This document shows, piece after piece, positions 21 through 9,203 of a DNA stretch of 20,909 nucleotides. Each line of letters begins with the position of its first letter. The first letter of the stretch is position 1. Both the position numbers and the translations under genes were made by a program. The stretch is taken from positions 1 to 20,909 of the IMG/VR virus record IMGVR_UViG_3300025910_000141; one strand, written 5' to 3'. The DNA comes from a virus. The notes under the pieces are model-generated. The model searched no databases and was not told where the DNA came from. It was given only the letters and a program-made list of their open reading frames with translations.

Positions 21-225
21 ATCCGTTCGTACGAGGTGTGATCTAGACCGTTCGCAAGGTACCGTCGCTCTAAGGCGACGTTATCGATGGGGGTCGAACA
101 TGCGAGCGCAGAGGATGAGCACGCTCTACGCGTCGAACGCGCAAGCGAGCCGTCGCGGAAAAACAACGAAACCAAGCGACGCTAAAAGGCGACGGCCCGG
201 GACGTACCGTTGCAGCTCAGACACC

Positions 226-238
226 GCATACCGTATGC
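226..238. promoter_or_regulatory. Palindrome at the repressor start, candidate autoregulatory operator
   Basis: GCATAC-C-GTATGC is a perfect inverted repeat with a single central base. It ends two bases before the ATG at 241. If that ATG is the true start the site covers the -10 region and could be the repressor's own operator. The symmetry is seen; the role is inferred. Confidence 0.35.
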
Positions 239-240
239 GT

Positions 241-648
241 ATGAGCGACGCTTCCCGCCCGGTCGAAGACTGGGCCGGCTACCTACGCCGGATGACCGAC
301 CGGTCCGGCTGGAGCGTCGCGCGCCTCGCCCGGGACTCCGGAGTCAACCGGGCAACGATCTTCAGATGGATCAAGGGCGACACCGGCGTCACCGTCGACA
401 GCGTCCGCCGCATCGCCCTCGCGCTCGGCGACGACCCGGAGAACGCGCTCCGCGCCGCGGGCAGCAGCGGACAGCCGGCCGCGCCCGTGCAGGACGAAGA
501 GGTCGCGCTGATCATGCGCGCGCCCGTCGATGACGAGCTGCGGCAGGTAATGCTGCGCAAACTGAGCGAACGGCGCGAACGCGACCGGCAGCAACGGATC
601 GCCGACTTCGAAACGATGATCGAGCTTTCCAAGCAGCGCGAGGGCTGA
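241..648 (+). CDS. XRE/Cro-type HTH protein, candidate phage immunity repressor
   Basis: A 135-residue DNA-binding protein. A helix-turn-helix occupies about residues 22-62, with the pattern WSVARLARDSGVNRATIFRW, followed by VDSVRRIALALG typical of XRE repressors. The C-terminal third is charged and helical (roughly 95-135) and may dimerise. It lies 3 bases upstream of the integrase, the usual place for an actinophage lysogeny repressor, so it probably holds the lytic genes off and may be co-transcribed with the integrase. In-frame starts also exist at 100 (preceded by GGGGG) and 235. I prefer 241 because codons 100-234 have weak GC third positions while those after 241 are strongly GC3-rich. 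An excisionase or other regulator is the main alternative. Confidence 0.7.
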   Translation: MSDASRPVEDWAGYLRRMTDRSGWSVARLARDSGVNRATIFRWIKGDTGVTVDSVRRIALALGDDPENALRAAGSSGQPAAPVQDEEVALIMRAPVDDELRQVMLRKLSERRERDRQQRIADFETMIELSKQREG

Positions 649-3295: not shown

Positions 3296-4084
3296 TCACG
3301 GCTTGCGCGCCACCGCGGCGTACGCCAGCGCCTCCGGATCGCTGACGACATCCCCGAACGGCCGCCACTGCGACGTCGACACCAGCCCCGGCTCGACCGG
3401 CTCCAGCCCGGCAAGGAAGCCGGCGACCTGATCCCAGGTCCGCGCCCGGAACGGGCCATGGGCGCCTGAACTCACCATCTCCTCGACCTTCGCGCGGACA
3501 TCGACCGGCAGCGGGTCGACAGTCGCGTGCGAGATCGCCACGTAGCTGCCCGACGGCAGCGCGGCCACCAGCTCGCGCACGCACGCCGCCGCCTCGGCGT
3601 CGTCCTCGATGAAGTGCAGCACCGCGCACAGCAGCACCCCGACCGGCCGCGAGAAGTCGAGGGGCAACCGGGCCGCGGAGATGATCTCCCGCGGGGCCAT
3701 CAGGTCCGCTTCGAGGTACCCGACGTCGCCGACGCCGTTGCCGGTCAGCAACGCCCGCGCGTGCGCCATGATCAGCGGGTCGTTGTCGACGTACACGACC
3801 CGGGCGGCCGGGTCGGCGGCCTGGGCGACGTCGTGCACGCTCTCGCCCGTGGGCATTCCACACCCGATGTCGAGGAACTGCCGGACGCCGGCCTCGGCTG
3901 CCAGGTAGCGCACGGCGCGGAGCACGAACTCGCGGTTTTCACGTATCGCTGTCCTGATCTGCGGCAGCTCCTCGCGCAGCAGATCCGCGGACGCCCGATC
4001 GGCCGCGAAGTTGTCCTTGCCGCCGAGCAGGTAGTCGTAGCGGCGGCCGGAATGCGGAACGTTGACGTTGAGCTCGGCGGTCAT
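3296..4084 (-). CDS. SAM-dependent methyltransferase, DUF574/PF04672 family
   Basis: 262 residues. The family signature RRYDYLLGGKDNFAADR is at 14-30. SAM-binding motif I, FLDIGCGMPTGESVHD, is at 70-85, and an acidic end of strand 2, VVYVDNDPLIMAHAR, is at 96-110. Rossmann-fold elements follow (VGVLLCAVLHFI, SYVAISHAT). The family is abundant in actinomycetes and its substrates are largely unknown. The start ATG overlaps the stop of the small upstream gene (ATGA), so the two are translationally coupled. In a phage this could be a lysogenic-conversion cargo gene, a modifier of DNA or a small molecule, or a host gene picked up by the phage. The function is not decided by the sequence. Confidence 0.88.
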   Translation of the reverse strand: MTAELNVNVPHSGRRYDYLLGGKDNFAADRASADLLREELPQIRTAIRENREFVLRAVRYLAAEAGVRQFLDIGCGMPTGESVHDVAQAADPAARVVYVDNDPLIMAHARALLTGNGVGDVGYLEADLMAPREIISAARLPLDFSRPVGVLLCAVLHFIEDDAEAAACVRELVAALPSGSYVAISHATVDPLPVDVRAKVEEMVSSGAHGPFRARTWDQVAGFLAGLEPVEPGLVSTSQWRPFGDVVSDPEALAYAAVARKP

Positions 4085-4296
4085 CGCGCACCCCGCCACC
4101 GGCGCCGTTCGGCTGCCTGCCACTCCCTGGCGTAGGCCAGGCCGTCGGCGTAGAGCCGTTCCGCGTCGCCCAGCTCGGCGCGGGCCAGCATGCGCTCGAC
4201 GTGGCAGGGGTAGGCCTCCAGTCCGCACCGGCAGACCGGGCGCCAGGGCGCGTACCAGCGCCGCCGAGGGCCGTGCTTGGGGTACAGGTCTCGCAT
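4081..4296 (-). CDS. Small Cys-containing basic protein coupled to the methyltransferase
   Basis: 71 residues, Arg-, Trp- and Tyr-rich. A central CRCG...PCHVERML cluster (about residues 23-37) has three cysteines and a histidine and might hold a metal. Its stop overlaps the methyltransferase start (ATGA), so the two form a translational unit and may work together, for example as a partner or substrate-binding subunit. A weak ribosome binding site (GAGG) precedes the ATG. A 7-bp palindrome lies 12 bases upstream. I do not recognise a named family. Confidence 0.6.
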   Translation of the reverse strand: MRDLYPKHGPRRRWYAPWRPVCRCGLEAYPCHVERMLARAELGDAERLYADGLAYAREWQAAERRRWRGAR

Positions 4297-4307
4297 GTCG
4301 CCTCGCT

Positions 4308-4323
4308 CTCACCCGAGGGTGAG
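4308..4323. promoter_or_regulatory. Palindrome CTCACCC-GA-GGGTGAG upstream of the methyltransferase unit
   Basis: Seven-base perfect arms around a two-base centre end 12 bases ahead of the ATG at 4296 (minus strand). The position suits an operator for the two-gene unit or a leader hairpin that blocks its ribosome binding site. Confidence 0.35.
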
Positions 4324-4468
4324 GCGGCGGGCAGAGCGCGGGTCCTGCCCCAAGCCCAGGTGAGAGCCCGCCACCTCAGGGGAGGCACTTTACAGCTTGC
4401 CAAGTAGCTGTGACTAGGAGTTGCGATATTACGTAGCCGACAAGTGGCACACCCATAGCGTGATCGTC

Positions 4469-4669
4469 ATGGCGGAAGTGATGGGCGCGGCGGAGATCGC
4501 CGAACGGCTGAGGGTGACTCGGCAGCGCGCCTACCAAATCACCAGCCGCCGCGACTTCCCCGAACCGATGGCGCATCTCGCGATGGGCCAGGTGTGGCGC
4601 ACGTCGGACGTCGAGCGGTGGATCTCGGAGCGCCGGCCTGAACTGAACGAGCCGGAGGGCGAGAGGTAA
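4469..4669 (+). CDS. AlpA/excisionase-type helix-turn-helix protein (second copy)
   Basis: 66 residues. GAAEIAERLRVTRQRAYQIT forms the HTH, followed by RRDFPEP, a wing GQVWRTSD and VERWISERR. It is clearly related to the 3068-3280 protein, sharing GAAEI, AY, FP-P, VW and EWI/RWI. It is probably an excisionase or small transcription factor. The ATG at 4469 lacks a ribosome binding site. TAGCGT (4456-4461) ends 7 bases before it, the same geometry as in the first copy, so both may be leaderless. A TTG further upstream in frame (4421) would add residues unlike the family. It is divergent from the methyltransferase unit and 65 bases upstream of the coiled-coil regulator. Confidence 0.75.
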   Translation: MAEVMGAAEIAERLRVTRQRAYQITSRRDFPEPMAHLAMGQVWRTSDVERWISERRPELNEPEGER

Positions 4670-4687
4670 GCCCTTTCCTAAAGGATC

Positions 4688-4728
4688 TCTAGCCCGCTAT
4701 AGACATGGGGTGTAGCGCGCTATAGAGT
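4688..4728 (+). promoter_or_regulatory. Promoter of the 4735 gene with two palindromic operators 23 bp apart
   Basis: Two copies of the TATAGCGCGCTATA palindrome lie at 4688-4701 (two mismatches) and 4711-4724 (one mismatch), 23 bases centre to centre. They overlap a plausible promoter: -35 TAGACA (4700-4705), a 17-base spacer, and -10 TAGAGT (4723-4728). Transcription would start at or beside the ATG at 4735, giving a leaderless mRNA. Confidence 0.6.
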
Positions 4729-4734
4729 CAGGTC

Positions 4735-5145
4735 ATGACGACGATCGAAGACCTGGCTCAGACCACCGCCGCGAGGTACGACATCCCGACCGACCCCGCA
4801 CGCAAGCTGGTCGCCACCTATGTCGACCAGATCAGCGACGACGCGGACCTGTGGGACGCCGGCGCGCAGACACTCACCGCCGACGGCGTCCAGGTCGTCA
4901 CCGACGCGATCAGTGAGGGCTACCGCCATGGCCTGAACTCCACGGCGGAGAGCCGCGTTCTGGCCGACCTGGAGGAGACCGCGGCCGAGCTGCGCCGGGC
5001 GGCCGAGGCCGTCGAAGCGCTGACGGCGAAGCGAGATCAGATGGTGCGGACCCTGATGACGACGGCGGTGAGCCGCAAGACGATCGCCGAGGCCGCCGGA
5101 CTGAAGGAGGCCCGGCTCTACCAGATCCGCGACGGGAGGCGCTGA
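4735..5145 (+). CDS. Coiled-coil protein with C-terminal HTH, candidate regulator
   Basis: 136 residues. The N-terminal 70 residues are mostly helical and acidic. About 75-103 (ESRVLADLEETAAELRRAAE onwards) is a likely coiled coil for dimerisation. The C-terminus (about 107-133) carries a helix-turn-helix, SRKTIAEAAGLKEARLYQIR, resembling sigma-70 region 4 or Trp-repressor-like motifs. The ATG at 4735 immediately follows a promoter, so translation is probably leaderless. The gene lies between two pairs of identical palindromic operators, so it may repress both itself and the gene at 5253. I do not recognise a named family. Confidence 0.7.
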   Translation: MTTIEDLAQTTAARYDIPTDPARKLVATYVDQISDDADLWDAGAQTLTADGVQVVTDAISEGYRHGLNSTAESRVLADLEETAAELRRAAEAVEALTAKRDQMVRTLMTTAVSRKTIAEAAGLKEARLYQIRDGRR

Positions 5146-5173
5146 GGCGCAGGTCAGGGCCAATATGTGCCAC

Positions 5174-5216
5174 TCTATAGCGCGCTATAGACATGAGCTA
5201 TAGCGCGCTATAGACT
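5174..5216 (+). promoter_or_regulatory. Promoter of the 5253 gene with two perfect palindromic operators 23 bp apart
   Basis: TCTATAGCGCGCTATAGA (5174-5191) is an 18-bp perfect palindrome, and CTATAGCGCGCTATAG (5198-5213) a 16-bp one. Their centres are 23 bases apart, exactly as in the upstream pair. They cover a promoter of the same build: -35 TAGACA (5188-5193), a 17-base spacer, and -10 TAGACT (5211-5216). A dimeric repressor here would block RNA polymerase. Confidence 0.65.
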
Positions 5217-5252
5217 TGTCTCATAAGCAAGCGAGAGACAAGGGAGACGGAA

Positions 5253-5504
5253 ATGACGATCACCGAGACCACCCAAGAGACCGAAGCCCACCAGGCCGAA
5301 ACCCACGGACACGAACTCGGATGCTTCCAGTGGCTCGCCGAGGAGATCATCGAGGACCTGGCCGAGCGGGGCATCGCCTACGAGACCGGGAACTTCGACG
5401 AGGACATCGCCGGAGTGACCATCCTGGACCGGATCATCCAGGCCCTCGAGAGCGGCAAGGCGAAGTGCCGGTGCGAGTGGCTCACCGCCGAGGGTGAGGA
5501 GTGA
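5253..5504 (+). CDS. Small acidic protein of unknown function
   Basis: 83 residues, rich in Glu and Thr, with an acidic N-terminus (TITETTQETEAHQAE), a probable helix WLAEEIIEDLAERGIAYE and a C-terminal CRCEW motif. The ATG has a ribosome binding site (AAGGGAGACGGAA). It is the only gene between a palindrome-controlled promoter and an intrinsic terminator, so it forms its own transcription unit, probably controlled by the upstream HTH protein. High charge and small size suit an early phage protein that binds a host factor, but no family is recognised. Confidence 0.6.
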   Translation: MTITETTQETEAHQAETHGHELGCFQWLAEEIIEDLAERGIAYETGNFDEDIAGVTILDRIIQALESGKAKCRCEWLTAEGEE

Positions 5505-5509
5505 GGGGT

Positions 5510-5534
5510 GGGGCTTCGGCCCCTTCCTTTCTCG
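5510..5534 (+). terminator. Intrinsic terminator with a UUCG tetraloop
   Basis: GGGGC-TTCG-GCCCC (5510-5523) is followed by the T-rich TTCCTTTCT. It begins 6 bases after the stop of the 5253 gene and should end that transcript. Confidence 0.75.
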
Positions 5535-5647
5535 ATCCTTTTGACACGTTTCATCCCGTGGGGAGCGCGCCCACCGATCGTCCACATCGCACCGACGATC
5601 ATCCGATCTGTCTCCCCCACGCTCGACCCGCACGCGTCCATACCTCA

Positions 5648-5671
5648 CCCTGTGATGGCCTCGTCACAGGG
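5648..5671 (+). promoter_or_regulatory. Inverted repeat covering the ribosome binding site of the 5684 gene
   Basis: CCCTGTGA (5648-5655) and TCACAGGG (5664-5671) are perfect 8-base inverse copies. The right arm contains most of AGGGAG, the likely ribosome binding site for the ATG at 5684. It could be an operator, or an RNA hairpin that hides the translation start. Confidence 0.4.
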
Positions 5672-5683
5672 AGATCGGACGCC

Positions 5684-6202
5684 ATGACCTACCCGCCCCA
5701 GCAGCAGGAGCCCCACAAGCCGCCCGTCATGCACGGCTACGACCCGCACCCGCCGCGAGGAGATTGGGCGCCGCCGCGGCGCGGAAGGATCCACCCGCTC
5801 GCCTGGGCGGCACTCGCCGTCGCGCTCGTCGCGCTAGCTGGCGTCGGATGGCTCGTCTACCAGCGGGAAACCGCGCCGGTCGGAACGATCGCGAACCCTG
5901 AGACCGTCGATGCCTTCGCCTCGGCCGCGGCCGCGCAGGCCGCCTTGCCAGCGTGCAAAGACGTGTTCCTGCCGGGCAAGGTTATCGATGCCAAGAAGGC
6001 CATGAACGGTTGCAAAGGCCCCGCTGGCAATACCATCTTCGTGGGCTCCTTTGACTGCACTGACGGCCGGAAGTTGTTCCAGGTGGACGCCAACACAGGC
6101 GCCCCGGCCGGATGGGGATTCGGCAACGGAAAGTACCGCGCCACGAAGGAAGCTGCGGCGGACCCGGCTTACAGCAAGGCGTATGGCTCCTGCAACGACT
6201 GA
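5684..6202 (+). CDS. Membrane-anchored protein with Pro-rich cytoplasmic N-terminus, function unknown
   Basis: 172 residues. A Pro/Gln/His-rich N-terminus (about 1-45) precedes one transmembrane helix, WAALAVALVALAGVGWLVYQ (about 48-68). A C-terminal domain of about 100 residues with four cysteines (CKDV, NGCKG, FDCTD, GSCND) should lie outside the membrane, where disulphides could form. This layout is common in actinomycete and actinophage surface proteins. Possible roles are superinfection exclusion or a lysogenic-conversion surface protein; neither is shown. The ATG follows AGGGAG, which lies in an inverted repeat. The gene ends 17 bases before a strong bidirectional terminator. No named family is recognised. 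Confidence 0.65.
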   Translation: MTYPPQQQEPHKPPVMHGYDPHPPRGDWAPPRRGRIHPLAWAALAVALVALAGVGWLVYQRETAPVGTIANPETVDAFASAAAAQAALPACKDVFLPGKVIDAKKAMNGCKGPAGNTIFVGSFDCTDGRKLFQVDANTGAPAGWGFGNGKYRATKEAAADPAYSKAYGSCND

Positions 6203-6219
6203 CGCCAGACGCGACGAAA

Positions 6220-6249
6220 GCCGCCCCCGACCCGAAGGTCAGGGGCGGC
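6220..6249. terminator. Bidirectional terminator between convergent units (late operon end)
   Basis: GCCGCCCC/GGGGCGGC (6220-6227, 6242-6249) plus GACC/GGTC (6229-6232, 6237-6240) form a stem with one C-A mismatch. On the minus strand the loop is TTCG and the stem is followed by TTTCGT, a good intrinsic terminator for the phage late operon. On the plus strand it would end the 5684 gene. Confidence 0.75.
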
Positions 6250-6290
6250 GCGGTTTGTCAGAGGGTGGCGCTACGGTGGCGCCGCGCGGG

Positions 6291-6476
6291 CTACGCCTCG
6301 GCGTTCCGCGTACGCCAGGTCGCCCAGCCGACAGCGGCCGCCGCGGCGGCGAACGCGCCGAGCGCCTGGCCGATCGTTGCGTCGTCGATGGTGCCGGCCT
6401 TGAGTACGACGGCCATGCCGGCGGCGACTCCGGCGCCGAGCCCAGCTATGACGGCCTTGCGGATGCGAGCGAGCAT
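6291..6476 (-). CDS. Holin
   Basis: 61 residues with two hydrophobic helices, AVIAGLGAGVAAGMAVVLKAG (about 8-28) and IGQALGAFAAAAAAVGWATW (about 34-53), a short linker and a charged C-terminus. This is the plan of small class II actinophage holins (r1t-like). It should form membrane lesions that let the endolysin reach the wall. The ATG has a strong ribosome binding site (AGGAGGGCATC). It is the last gene of the late operon, 374 bases after the XhlA-like gene. That gap holds an opposite-strand gene. Confidence 0.75.
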   Translation of the reverse strand: MLARIRKAVIAGLGAGVAAGMAVVLKAGTIDDATIGQALGAFAAAAAAVGWATWRTRNAEA

Positions 6477-6850: not shown

Positions 6851-7150
6851 CTACTTCTTGTAGACCGCGATCAGGATCGCGGCGATCAACGACGCGAGCG
6901 GCAGCAGCACGGCCAGCGAGGCGAGCGGCCACTGACGTCGCTCCATCGCCCGAAGCCGCGCCTCGTGGTCATGCAACCGGTCCGCCGCGCCGGCCAGCGG
7001 CCGCAGCTCGACATCGTGCTCGGCGACCATTTGCTCGGTGCGTTCATGCCGGGACAGCGCCGTGTCGACCCGGGAAGTCAGCGCGATGAGCTGCTGGTAA
7101 ATGACCTCCAGGGTGATCAGCACTCCGCCACCGCCGGGCGTCGTGGTCAC
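6851..7150 (-). CDS. XhlA-like membrane protein of the lysis cassette
   Basis: 99 residues. A helical, coiled-coil-prone region (about 12-75) is followed by one transmembrane helix, SLAVLLPLASLIAAILIAVY (about 78-97), with a KK end. This matches the plan of haemolysin XhlA-type and single-helix lysis accessory proteins that assist the holin and endolysin. The GTG start overlaps the endolysin stop (GTGA), so its translation is coupled to the endolysin. It could itself be a second holin. Confidence 0.7.
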   Translation of the reverse strand: MTTTPGGGGVLITLEVIYQQLIALTSRVDTALSRHERTEQMVAEHDVELRPLAGAADRLHDHEARLRAMERRQWPLASLAVLLPLASLIAAILIAVYKK

Positions 7151-7956
7151 GCGCCCGACGCCGCGAGCTGGCGCAGCGCGGCGAGGATGGCCGCGGTCAG
7201 CTGCTCGTCGGTCACGGTAACCACGCCAGTCGGGAGCGCGGCCCTCACCGCGGCTGTCAGCTTGTCCTGCCCAACCGCGGCCAGCACGGCGGGCAGCTGG
7301 TCGTTCGTGGTCGCGTTGGTTCGGGCGTCGAGGGTGACCGCGACGCCGCCGGCGGAGGAGCCGTTCGACAGCTTGTGGGCCCAGACCGCCGCGGCGATCT
7401 CTTCAGCACTGGGCATGTCATCTCCATCCTCGATCCGCTCACGCACCAGCGCGCGGAAGGCGTTCATCCCGAACGTCGGGTCGGTCTTGTGGCCCGGGGT
7501 GTGCTCGCGGTGGCCGACGACCCGGGACTCCGGCCAGCCCATGCGGCGGCAGATCGCGGCGACGCCGGTCGCGTACGCCTGGTACTGCACGGCCGGCCAC
7601 GGCTCGCTGGCGTTGTCGTTGCAGGCCTCGATGCCCAGCGCGTGCGTGTTGCCCTGCCCTTCGAAGGGCCCGGCGGTTCCGGTGATCGTGGTGTTGCAGC
7701 GGCCCGCGGCGAGGACGTGCCAGCGGCCGGACCGGTCGATGCAGGCGTTCGCGATCGGCCCGTGCAGGTCGGCGCGGCCGTCGCGGACGATCCGCACCTG
7801 CGTGTCGTCGGCCTGGCCGGACGGCGCCGCGGTGGCGTGCGCGACGATGAACCGCGGCGACCAGTCGCCCGGGCGCTCCCGGGTCTGCCAGCCGGCGTGC
7901 TCGACGACCTCGAGGCCGGCGGTGCGCAGGACGTCGGCGAGCCATGTGATCCTCAT
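7147..7956 (-). CDS. Endolysin, N-acetylmuramoyl-L-alanine amidase (Amidase_2/PGRP type)
   Basis: 269 residues. The amidase domain covers about 20-185. The zinc-site pattern includes His40 (FIVAHATA), His149 (VVGHREH), Asp159 and the catalytic-type Lys157 (HKTDP), with THALGIEACND as the central strand. It should cut the bond between muramic acid and the stem peptide at the end of the lytic cycle. The C-terminal 75 residues (from MPSAEEIAAAVWAHKL) are Ala-rich and helical, as in other actinophage amidases, and may help bind the wall or oligomerise. There is no signal peptide, so export depends on the holin. The ATG overlaps the tail fibre stop (ATGA). Longer forms using starts up to 8298 would run through the fibre gene and are rejected. 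Confidence 0.9.
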   Translation of the reverse strand: MRITWLADVLRTAGLEVVEHAGWQTRERPGDWSPRFIVAHATAAPSGQADDTQVRIVRDGRADLHGPIANACIDRSGRWHVLAAGRCNTTITGTAGPFEGQGNTHALGIEACNDNASEPWPAVQYQAYATGVAAICRRMGWPESRVVGHREHTPGHKTDPTFGMNAFRALVRERIEDGDDMPSAEEIAAAVWAHKLSNGSSAGGVAVTLDARTNATTNDQLPAVLAAVGQDKLTAAVRAALPTGVVTVTDEQLTAAILAALRQLAASGA

Positions 7957-9203
7957 GAAATCCCCACCCACCATGCAGTCGGGTTGCCCGTTTGCGTGCC
8001 AATGTTGGACGGTGCCGCGGTGGTCAGCCCGGCGTCCGCGGTCGAGTAGCGCAGCGTCGGCGCGCTCATTCCCGCATTGAGGACGGCGGCCGAGATGTCG
8101 GCGGCCCGGGCCAGCGTTGGCCCTGTGGTGCCTCGGAACCACCACAGAACGCGGTACCAGGTGTATGGAGTGACGCCCTGGGCGACGGACAGCGCGCAGG
8201 TCTTGTAGCCGCTGGTGGCCCAGTTGGTGGATTGGTCGGCGGTGACCGCGCCCGCGCCGAGGAGTGCCCCGGCGTCGTTGTAGAGCGCGGCGAAGCACTG
8301 GCCCGCGGTCAGGTTGCTGCCGCCTGCGGTCAAATAGAGGTGGATGTTGGACACGACCGACGACAGCACACGGATCCGGGCGACCTGGGCGAGCCCGGCG
8401 GTCGGCTGGACGGTGCCCGCCTGGATCTGCGCCGGGTCGAAGGTCCAGCCGGTCAGGCCGTGGTCGACCGGCCGGGGGTGTGCAGTAGCCTGCCGGAAGT
8501 CGACGCCGGCCACGCTCAGGGAGGTTTCGAGGCTGACCGCACCCGTTGCCCGCTCAATGCCCAGCGGCGCGTCGAGCGCTTCACCGGCGTCGGAATAACG
8601 CACGATCCGCAGGTTGGATCCAGCGTTGCCTCCGGCCTCGGCGGTGTTGTTGACGTGGAATGACCAACGTGTGGCAGCCTCGGAGGCCCCGGACCCGTAC
8701 TGAATTTGCCGGAACGTCCCCGGGCCGCCGTTGACCCTCAGCACGCCGTCGTCGATGCTGAGGTCGGCCTGCACGGTCAGATCACCGGTCATCGTGTCAC
8801 CGGTCTTCGCAACCTTCTCGGCAAGCTGGGCGAGGGTGGCGTAGGTGACTCCGGATGTCGCGGCGCCGTCCCACTGGATCAGGTCGGCCAGTTCCACGCT
8901 GGTCGTCTGGTAGTCGAGCTGCAGCGTGCCGGAAATCGTGGCGCCGCCAACGTGCGCGGTAACCGTGTACGCCCAGCCGGACGGCGTCCACTGCGGGTCG
9001 TTGGTCGCTGGCAACTGGATCGACGCGGTGCCGTCAGCGGCGAGGTAGGCGGTCTGCGGGACCGGCGGCACGACGCTGCCGTCGGCTGCGCCGGTCAGGG
9101 GCCGCGGAATCCGGAAGACGACCCTGCCGACGGCGCCGCCGGAAGGTGGCGTGTCGAAGCGGATGGCGACGGTGACCAGCGTCAGAGTGGCGGGCCAGGA
9201 CAT
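7953..9203 (-). CDS. Tail fibre / minor tail protein (receptor-binding candidate)
   Basis: 416 residues. The N-terminal 110 residues are beta-rich (virion attachment). KVAKTGDTMTGDLTVQADLS (about 130-150) is the GDTMTG-L motif found in phage tail fibres. After a beta-repeat region, the C-terminal 170 residues (from about 245) form a Gly/Ala/Thr-rich beta domain that probably contacts the host. The ATG has a strong ribosome binding site (AGGAGGATCG). It is the last tail gene before the lysis genes, the usual place for receptor-binding proteins. Confidence 0.8.
   Translation of the reverse strand: MSWPATLTLVTVAIRFDTPPSGGAVGRVVFRIPRPLTGAADGSVVPPVPQTAYLAADGTASIQLPATNDPQWTPSGWAYTVTAHVGGATISGTLQLDYQTTSVELADLIQWDGAATSGVTYATLAQLAEKVAKTGDTMTGDLTVQADLSIDDGVLRVNGGPGTFRQIQYGSGASEAATRWSFHVNNTAEAGGNAGSNLRIVRYSDAGEALDAPLGIERATGAVSLETSLSVAGVDFRQATAHPRPVDHGLTGWTFDPAQIQAGTVQPTAGLAQVARIRVLSSVVSNIHLYLTAGGSNLTAGQCFAALYNDAGALLGAGAVTADQSTNWATSGYKTCALSVAQGVTPYTWYRVLWWFRGTTGPTLARAADISAAVLNAGMSAPTLRYSTADAGLTTAAPSNIGTQTGNPTAWWVGIS

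Follow-up and report, generated by a model that had tools for sequence, protein, structure and literature searches.

A small HTH protein of temperate actinophages as the likely reader of paired palindromes over two duplicate promoters

In the window analyzed here, i.e., the whole 20.9-kb stretch (20,909 nucleotides) taken from an IMG/VR virus record, a gene for a small helix-turn-helix (HTH) protein lies between two nearly identical promoter regions, each overlapped by a pair of palindromes, the second of which precedes a gene for a small acidic protein. The locus thus raises the question of whether the HTH protein reads these palindromes and, if so, whether it controls its own gene, the gene at 5253, or both.

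The promoter-operator modules and their setting

The window is a fragment of a prophage, from a temperate tailed phage of an actinobacterium, and covers one of its ends. A gene for an XRE-type repressor-like protein (100-648, plus strand), which matches transcriptional-repressor families, directly precedes the tyrosine integrase gene (652-1845) in the left part of the window, while the endolysin gene (7147-8298) and, in the right part, the tail and capsid genes lie on the strand opposite to the regulator. Since the integrase is on the left and the endolysin, tail and capsid genes are on the right, the window represents the prophage end with the switch between the lysis genes and the integrase, and the regulator gene (4735-5145) occupies the place between the integrase and the endolysin. 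Between the integrase and the regulator are an S-adenosyl methyltransferase gene (Methyltransf_19; 3296-4312, minus strand) and, just before the first module, a gene for a small excisionase-like HTH_17 protein (4469-4669, plus strand), possibly the Xis of this phage. For mycobacterial and Gordonia phages, lysogens have been shown to express genes from the central part of the genome, close to those for integration and immunity, and some of these are defence genes (PMC6426596, PMC6426606).

A search of the whole window for TATAGCGCGCTATA with up to three mismatches returned exactly four matches, at 4688, 4711, 5176 and 5199 (2, 1, 0 and 0 mismatches, respectively), while the chance expectation is 0.17 and none of 100 shuffles gave four. 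The palindromes are 23 bp apart in both pairs (4688/4711 and 5176/5199), and the surrounding modules, 4686-4726 and 5174-5214, form a 41-nt direct repeat with 88% identity, thus bearing out the earlier note on this DNA, which had described two duplicate modules with identical spacing. Only two sigma-70-like promoters were found within 4300-6300 (0.2 expected from shuffling). These are P1 (4700-4728, plus strand), with the -35 hexamer TAGACA at 4700-4705, a 17-nt spacer and the -10 hexamer TAGAGT at 4723-4728, and P2 (5188-5216, plus strand), with TAGACA at 5188-5193, a spacer of the same length and TAGACT at 5211-5216. The -35 of P1 is covered by the putative operator O1a (4686-4703), a degenerate palindrome TCTCTAGCCCGCTATAGA, and the -10 by O1b (4710-4725), a palindrome GTGTAGCGCGCTATAG 23 bp further on; at P2, the corresponding putative operators are both perfect palindromes, TCTATAGCGCGCTATAGA of 18 bp over the -35 (O2a, 5174-5191) and, again 23 bp after it, CTATAGCGCGCTATAG of 16 bp over the -10 (O2b, 5198-5213). 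As the hexamer starts are also 23 bp apart, the palindromes meet both hexamers with the same edge. The promoter architecture proposed earlier (TAGACA, a 17-base spacer and TAnnnT, with one palindrome overlapping each hexamer, the first at the -35 and the second at the -10) was therefore found in both modules, as was the difference between a degenerate upstream pair (2 + 1 mismatches) and a perfect downstream one (0 + 0).

Both open reading frames assigned to these promoters, 4735-5145 and 5253-5504, are present. The ATG of the regulator at 4735 is situated 6 nt past the -10 of P1, so that the P1 transcript is probably leaderless. The gene under P2 (5253-5504, plus strand) encodes an acidic protein of 83 aa (pI 4.3), with GGGAG at 5242-5246, 6 nt before the ATG, and its unit is closed by a terminator-like stem-loop GGGGCTTCGGCCCC followed by the T-rich TTCCTTTC (5510-5523, plus strand). 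We looked for a terminator between the regulator and P2 and found none, so read-through of 5253 from P1 is possible. The 5253 protein has no match among Pfam or PHROG families (E below 0.01) or in PADLOC, no homologues in either phages or viral contigs, in which the regulator does have relatives, and a single-sequence structure model of low confidence (pLDDT 53), too weak for use. Small acidic genes recur under the operator: in two other loci (L008 and L010) a small acidic protein with a pI of about 4.1 is encoded by the first gene past the operator, before the HTH gene, with no evident sequence similarity among these proteins and 5253 (pI 4.3).

The regulator protein and its relatives among known systems

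The regulator (4735-5145, plus strand) is a protein of 136 aa that ends in EARLYQIRDGRR at the stop codon. It consists of a helical N-terminal domain (residues 1-66), a long helix (71-107) and an HTH formed by helices 114-121 and 125-132. The AlphaFold model, which is that of a monomer, has a mean pLDDT of 93 and a pTM of 0.53 and places the second HTH helix at 125-132; the long helix is likely to be a dimerization element. Comparison with the PHROGs profiles assigned the protein to phrog_686 (E 8.5e-6, residues 77-134, over the HTH), and all 35 aligned relatives match the same family (best 1.2e-19). Their alignment revealed a conserved R-x-Y-Q-I-R-D-G-R-R abutting the stop codon and a helix before it, while the N-terminal parts vary, and some members of only about 64 aa comprise just the helix and the HTH. 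No close relatives were found by tblastn with the regulator in genome_contigs, phages or plasmids. The statement of the earlier note that the switch matched no named system thus holds for the operator, as far as the open-licence literature goes, and does not hold for the protein, which belongs to a catalogued family.

The named members of phrog_686, annotated as 'HTH DNA binding protein', include gp44 of Mycobacterium phage DeadP, gp48 of Mycobacterium phage Avani and gp32 of Gordonia phage Bunker. They share with the window protein the same HTH and the ...R[VIL]YQIRDG.R end; in DeadP and Avani the gene lies between the integrase and lysis genes, just as in the window, and in Bunker it adjoins the integrase. 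In DeadP, AGCGCGCTTGCC is found about 40 bp before the gene, and in Avani and Bunker, AGCACGCTTGCC. In contrast to these members, the window protein has about 66 additional aa that form an N-terminal domain, and its locus has perfect paired palindromes and a second module for 5253.

More distant parallels concern the logic of the switch. KorA/TrfB proteins of IncP plasmids are small HTH repressors that control their own synthesis, with palindromic operators lying across the promoter of the operon they belong to; the HTH of KorA is not at the very C-terminus. The regulator shows a weak HTH similarity to this family, but all its Pfam HTH matches are sub-threshold (KORA, PF16509, 16.8 bits vs. 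a cut-off of 26.7), so it is a non-member, and the operator and its half-site spacing differ. Fold comparison of the regulator model gave weak matches to common HTH arrangements, and KorA was not among the listed matches. The Trp repressor and further autorepressors of the classical type, whose operators are part of the promoter, follow the same logic, and the HTH geometry shows a weak alignment (Z about 5), without an apparent sequence relation or a known ligand.

Association of the protein family with the palindrome

The earlier note had suggested seeking the operator together with the gene in other actinobacteria. In a protein-first sample, viral contigs bearing codons for YQIRDGRR, the last eight residues of the regulator, gave 37 stretches, 36 of them usable. 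Of these 36 loci, 21 contain the palindromic core AGCGCGCT (36 copies) no more than 700 bp upstream of the HTH end, while the runner-up among the 256 palindromic 8-mers reached 7 loci. Its density was 1.63/kb upstream and 0.031/kb elsewhere in the same loci, i.e., about 52-fold higher upstream. These loci are related to varying degrees, so the co-occurrence counts represent non-independent events. The 15 loci lacking the exact core nearby include truncated ones and some with degenerate sites (L062, L075); in L079, L082, L084, L090 and L091 no site was seen near the HTH gene. A higher figure, with sites at 36 of 50 genes, includes loci fetched by the operator and relies on a matrix built from the same sites, which makes 21/36 the less biased estimate.

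The opposite, operator-first approach required a relaxed core, because no exact double TATAGCGCGCTATA was found in the viral contigs. The pattern WAGCGCGCTW-13-WAGCGCGCTW (23 bp apart) was found in 11 viral contigs, and tblastn detected the HTH near the relaxed pair in L006, L008-L011 and L015. The same relaxed pair occurred in 22 loci of genome_contigs, mostly of low G+C and without the HTH, often hairpin-like, and these were taken as chance. Further searches used the single 14-mers TAGCGCGCTTGACA and TGTAGCGCGCTACA. Among loci found by an operator 14-mer only, the HTH lay within 1.2 kb in 7 of 14 with a G+C of at least 0.64 and in 1 of 76 with lower G+C; the background was 10 of 1172 random positions in G+C-rich loci. 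Several homologues found by way of the operator end in YQIRDRRR, YQIRDNRR, YQIKDGRR or YQIRDGTR, which shows that the operator search was more than a repetition of the protein search. In the 32 operator loci compared, the HTH was present in all, partly by selection, and the next shared family in 5. The co-occurrence spans viral contigs of 0.62-0.73 G+C.

Taken together, the sequence comparisons make the regulator-operator link well supported, and the protein encoded at 4735-5145 is likely the reader of the palindromes. Neither the operator sequence nor the YQIRDGRR tail was found in the open-licence literature, and the family-wide operator appears to be undescribed.

The relatives differ in layout. 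The spacing of the operator pair is mostly 23 bp (10 cases) or 42 bp (9 cases). Pairs of the 23-bp class cover the -35 and the -10, often with a start codon 6 nt past the -10, whereas in pairs spaced by 42 bp TTGACA is part of the first site, and the second is located downstream of the presumed -10. The closer relatives L062 and L075 have a 23-bp pair over TAGACA-17-TAGAxT as in the window, with CTATAG flanks. In L004, whose protein is 49% identical to the regulator, four sites lie between the regulator and a divergent 56-aa gene preceded by a similar leader GGGAGACGGAcATG; comparison of this gene, which is under a second module, with 5253 showed them to be unrelated. As judged from the sites, the putative autoregulatory module is common in the relatives and the second module is an extra, so the design is not unique to this phage. 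A shortened homologue in L005 has no operator, looks like a remnant and was dropped as evidence. A single regulator gene appears to be split between two metagenome contigs, the end of L014 and the start of L083 (...EARICEEGW / ICEEGWRDT...), with the operator in L014.

In whole-record scans of other operator-bearing phages, strong sites were confined to one or two promoters adjoining the regulator. The exception is G008 (L044/L045), with scattered sites and no detectable phrog_686 member: seven related palindromes of the TGTTAGCGCGCTTGCC and CGCTAACG type are distributed over 38.6 kb (at about 5204, 8584, 11532, 14523 + 14546, 15026 and 38419), which resembles a multi-site regulon under a different reader. 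A 111-kb record, G309, bears two family members (L062 and L188, at about 52.9 kb and 15.9 kb) and a weak third, and L062 and L188 are each preceded by their own operator variant (CTCTAGCTCGCTATAG and GTGTAGCGCGCTACAC). Across the family, L or M before the tyrosine tends to go with A at position 3 of the half-site (CTAT-AGC, GTAT-AGC), and I, V or A with G/C: G/C was found in 7 of 9 cases with I/V/A vs. 3 of 29 with L/M (Fisher p 3e-4, with kinship ignored and the grouping made post hoc). This may reflect a protein-DNA code linking the residue before the tyrosine to the half-site base.

Autorepression and the alternatives

Most probably, the regulator acts as an autorepressor at P1 and also represses 5253 at P2 by means of the TAGCGCGCTA palindromes. 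We infer that its C-terminal HTH would bind them directly, the protein most likely being dimeric, with one dimer over the -35 of P1 or P2 and a second one 23 bp on over the -10, and that the bound dimers would exclude RNA polymerase and so repress rather than activate. The operators cover both hexamers of the regulator's own promoter, which points to autorepression by such exclusion. Repression of P1 would cap the level of the repressor itself, and that of P2 would hold down the 83-aa protein, whatever its role may be; loss or titration of the repressor, with entry into a new cell or induction as the presumed signal, would free P1 and P2 together. The earlier suggestion that the protein acts on both modules is thus retained at the level of sequence, 5253 being its likely second target. 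As to the accompanying proposal of tight control of 5253 and weaker self-control, the greater symmetry of the downstream pair suggests tighter control there, but the family matrix does not rank this pair higher (13.5 for O1a and 22.8 for O1b vs. 19.6 for both O2a and O2b).

One could suppose that a host factor binds the palindromes and that the HTH gene is merely among its targets, since 7 of the 14 G+C-rich operator-first loci have no HTH nearby. We consider this unlikely: the operator tracks the HTH gene across viral contigs of 0.62-0.73 G+C, the single host of G309 would have to account for two members with two operator versions, the residue before the tyrosine covaries with the half-site base, and TAGCGCGCTTGACA is present in only 3 of 296 actinobacterial genomes. 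That the protein is instead an activator, or a minimal sigma-like factor recruiting RNA polymerase, seems very improbable. Some family members give weak Sigma70_r4 or sigma70-ECF matches, some phage homologues are annotated as 'RNA polymerase sigma factor', and both halves of the regulator model align weakly with sigma factors; however, a Z of about 5 may reflect merely a common arrangement, the regulator itself has no sigma family match in Pfam or NCBIfam, and the shortest members are reduced to the helix and the HTH. Moreover, the sites cover the -35 and the -10 of promoters resembling ordinary sigma-70 ones, and their dyad symmetry fits a dimer, not a sigma factor.

An HTH protein, probably autoregulated and encoded near the integrase of a temperate phage, might also be taken for the immunity (lysogeny) repressor. 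We consider this improbable, as the XRE protein beside the integrase is a better candidate, the named relatives have separate annotated repressors, and the scanned records of other phages show the operator beside the regulator only; for this phage, the window does not extend to the early lytic region. Antitoxins usually repress their own synthesis, and two small adjacent genes under a common operator, together with the match of one family member to an antidote model, could indicate a toxin-antitoxin or similar addiction pair in which 5253 is the partner of the regulator, the latter being the autorepressing antitoxin. We regard this as highly unlikely, because 5253 is acidic, matches no family, has its own promoter instead of forming one operon with the regulator from a common start and, unlike the regulator, lacks detectable homologues among phages and viral contigs.

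Autorepression with 5253 as a second target thus remains the preferred reading, and the circuit is ordinary in mechanism and logic. More tentatively, a large actinophage family might read a portable palindrome (GTGTAGCGCGCTACAC and close variants) in 23- and 42-bp layouts with a code in the last helix, so that a phage could harbor several insulated switches and recruit accessory genes such as 5253 by module duplication; we find this conceivable but somewhat doubtful. What the comparisons offer is a DNA target and a likely role for a common, functionally unassigned HTH family of temperate actinophages. The candidate repressor-operator pair is compact (136 aa and 40 bp) and could work as a switch in actinobacteria, and the search for paired palindromes provides a route to the genes under the control of such prophages.
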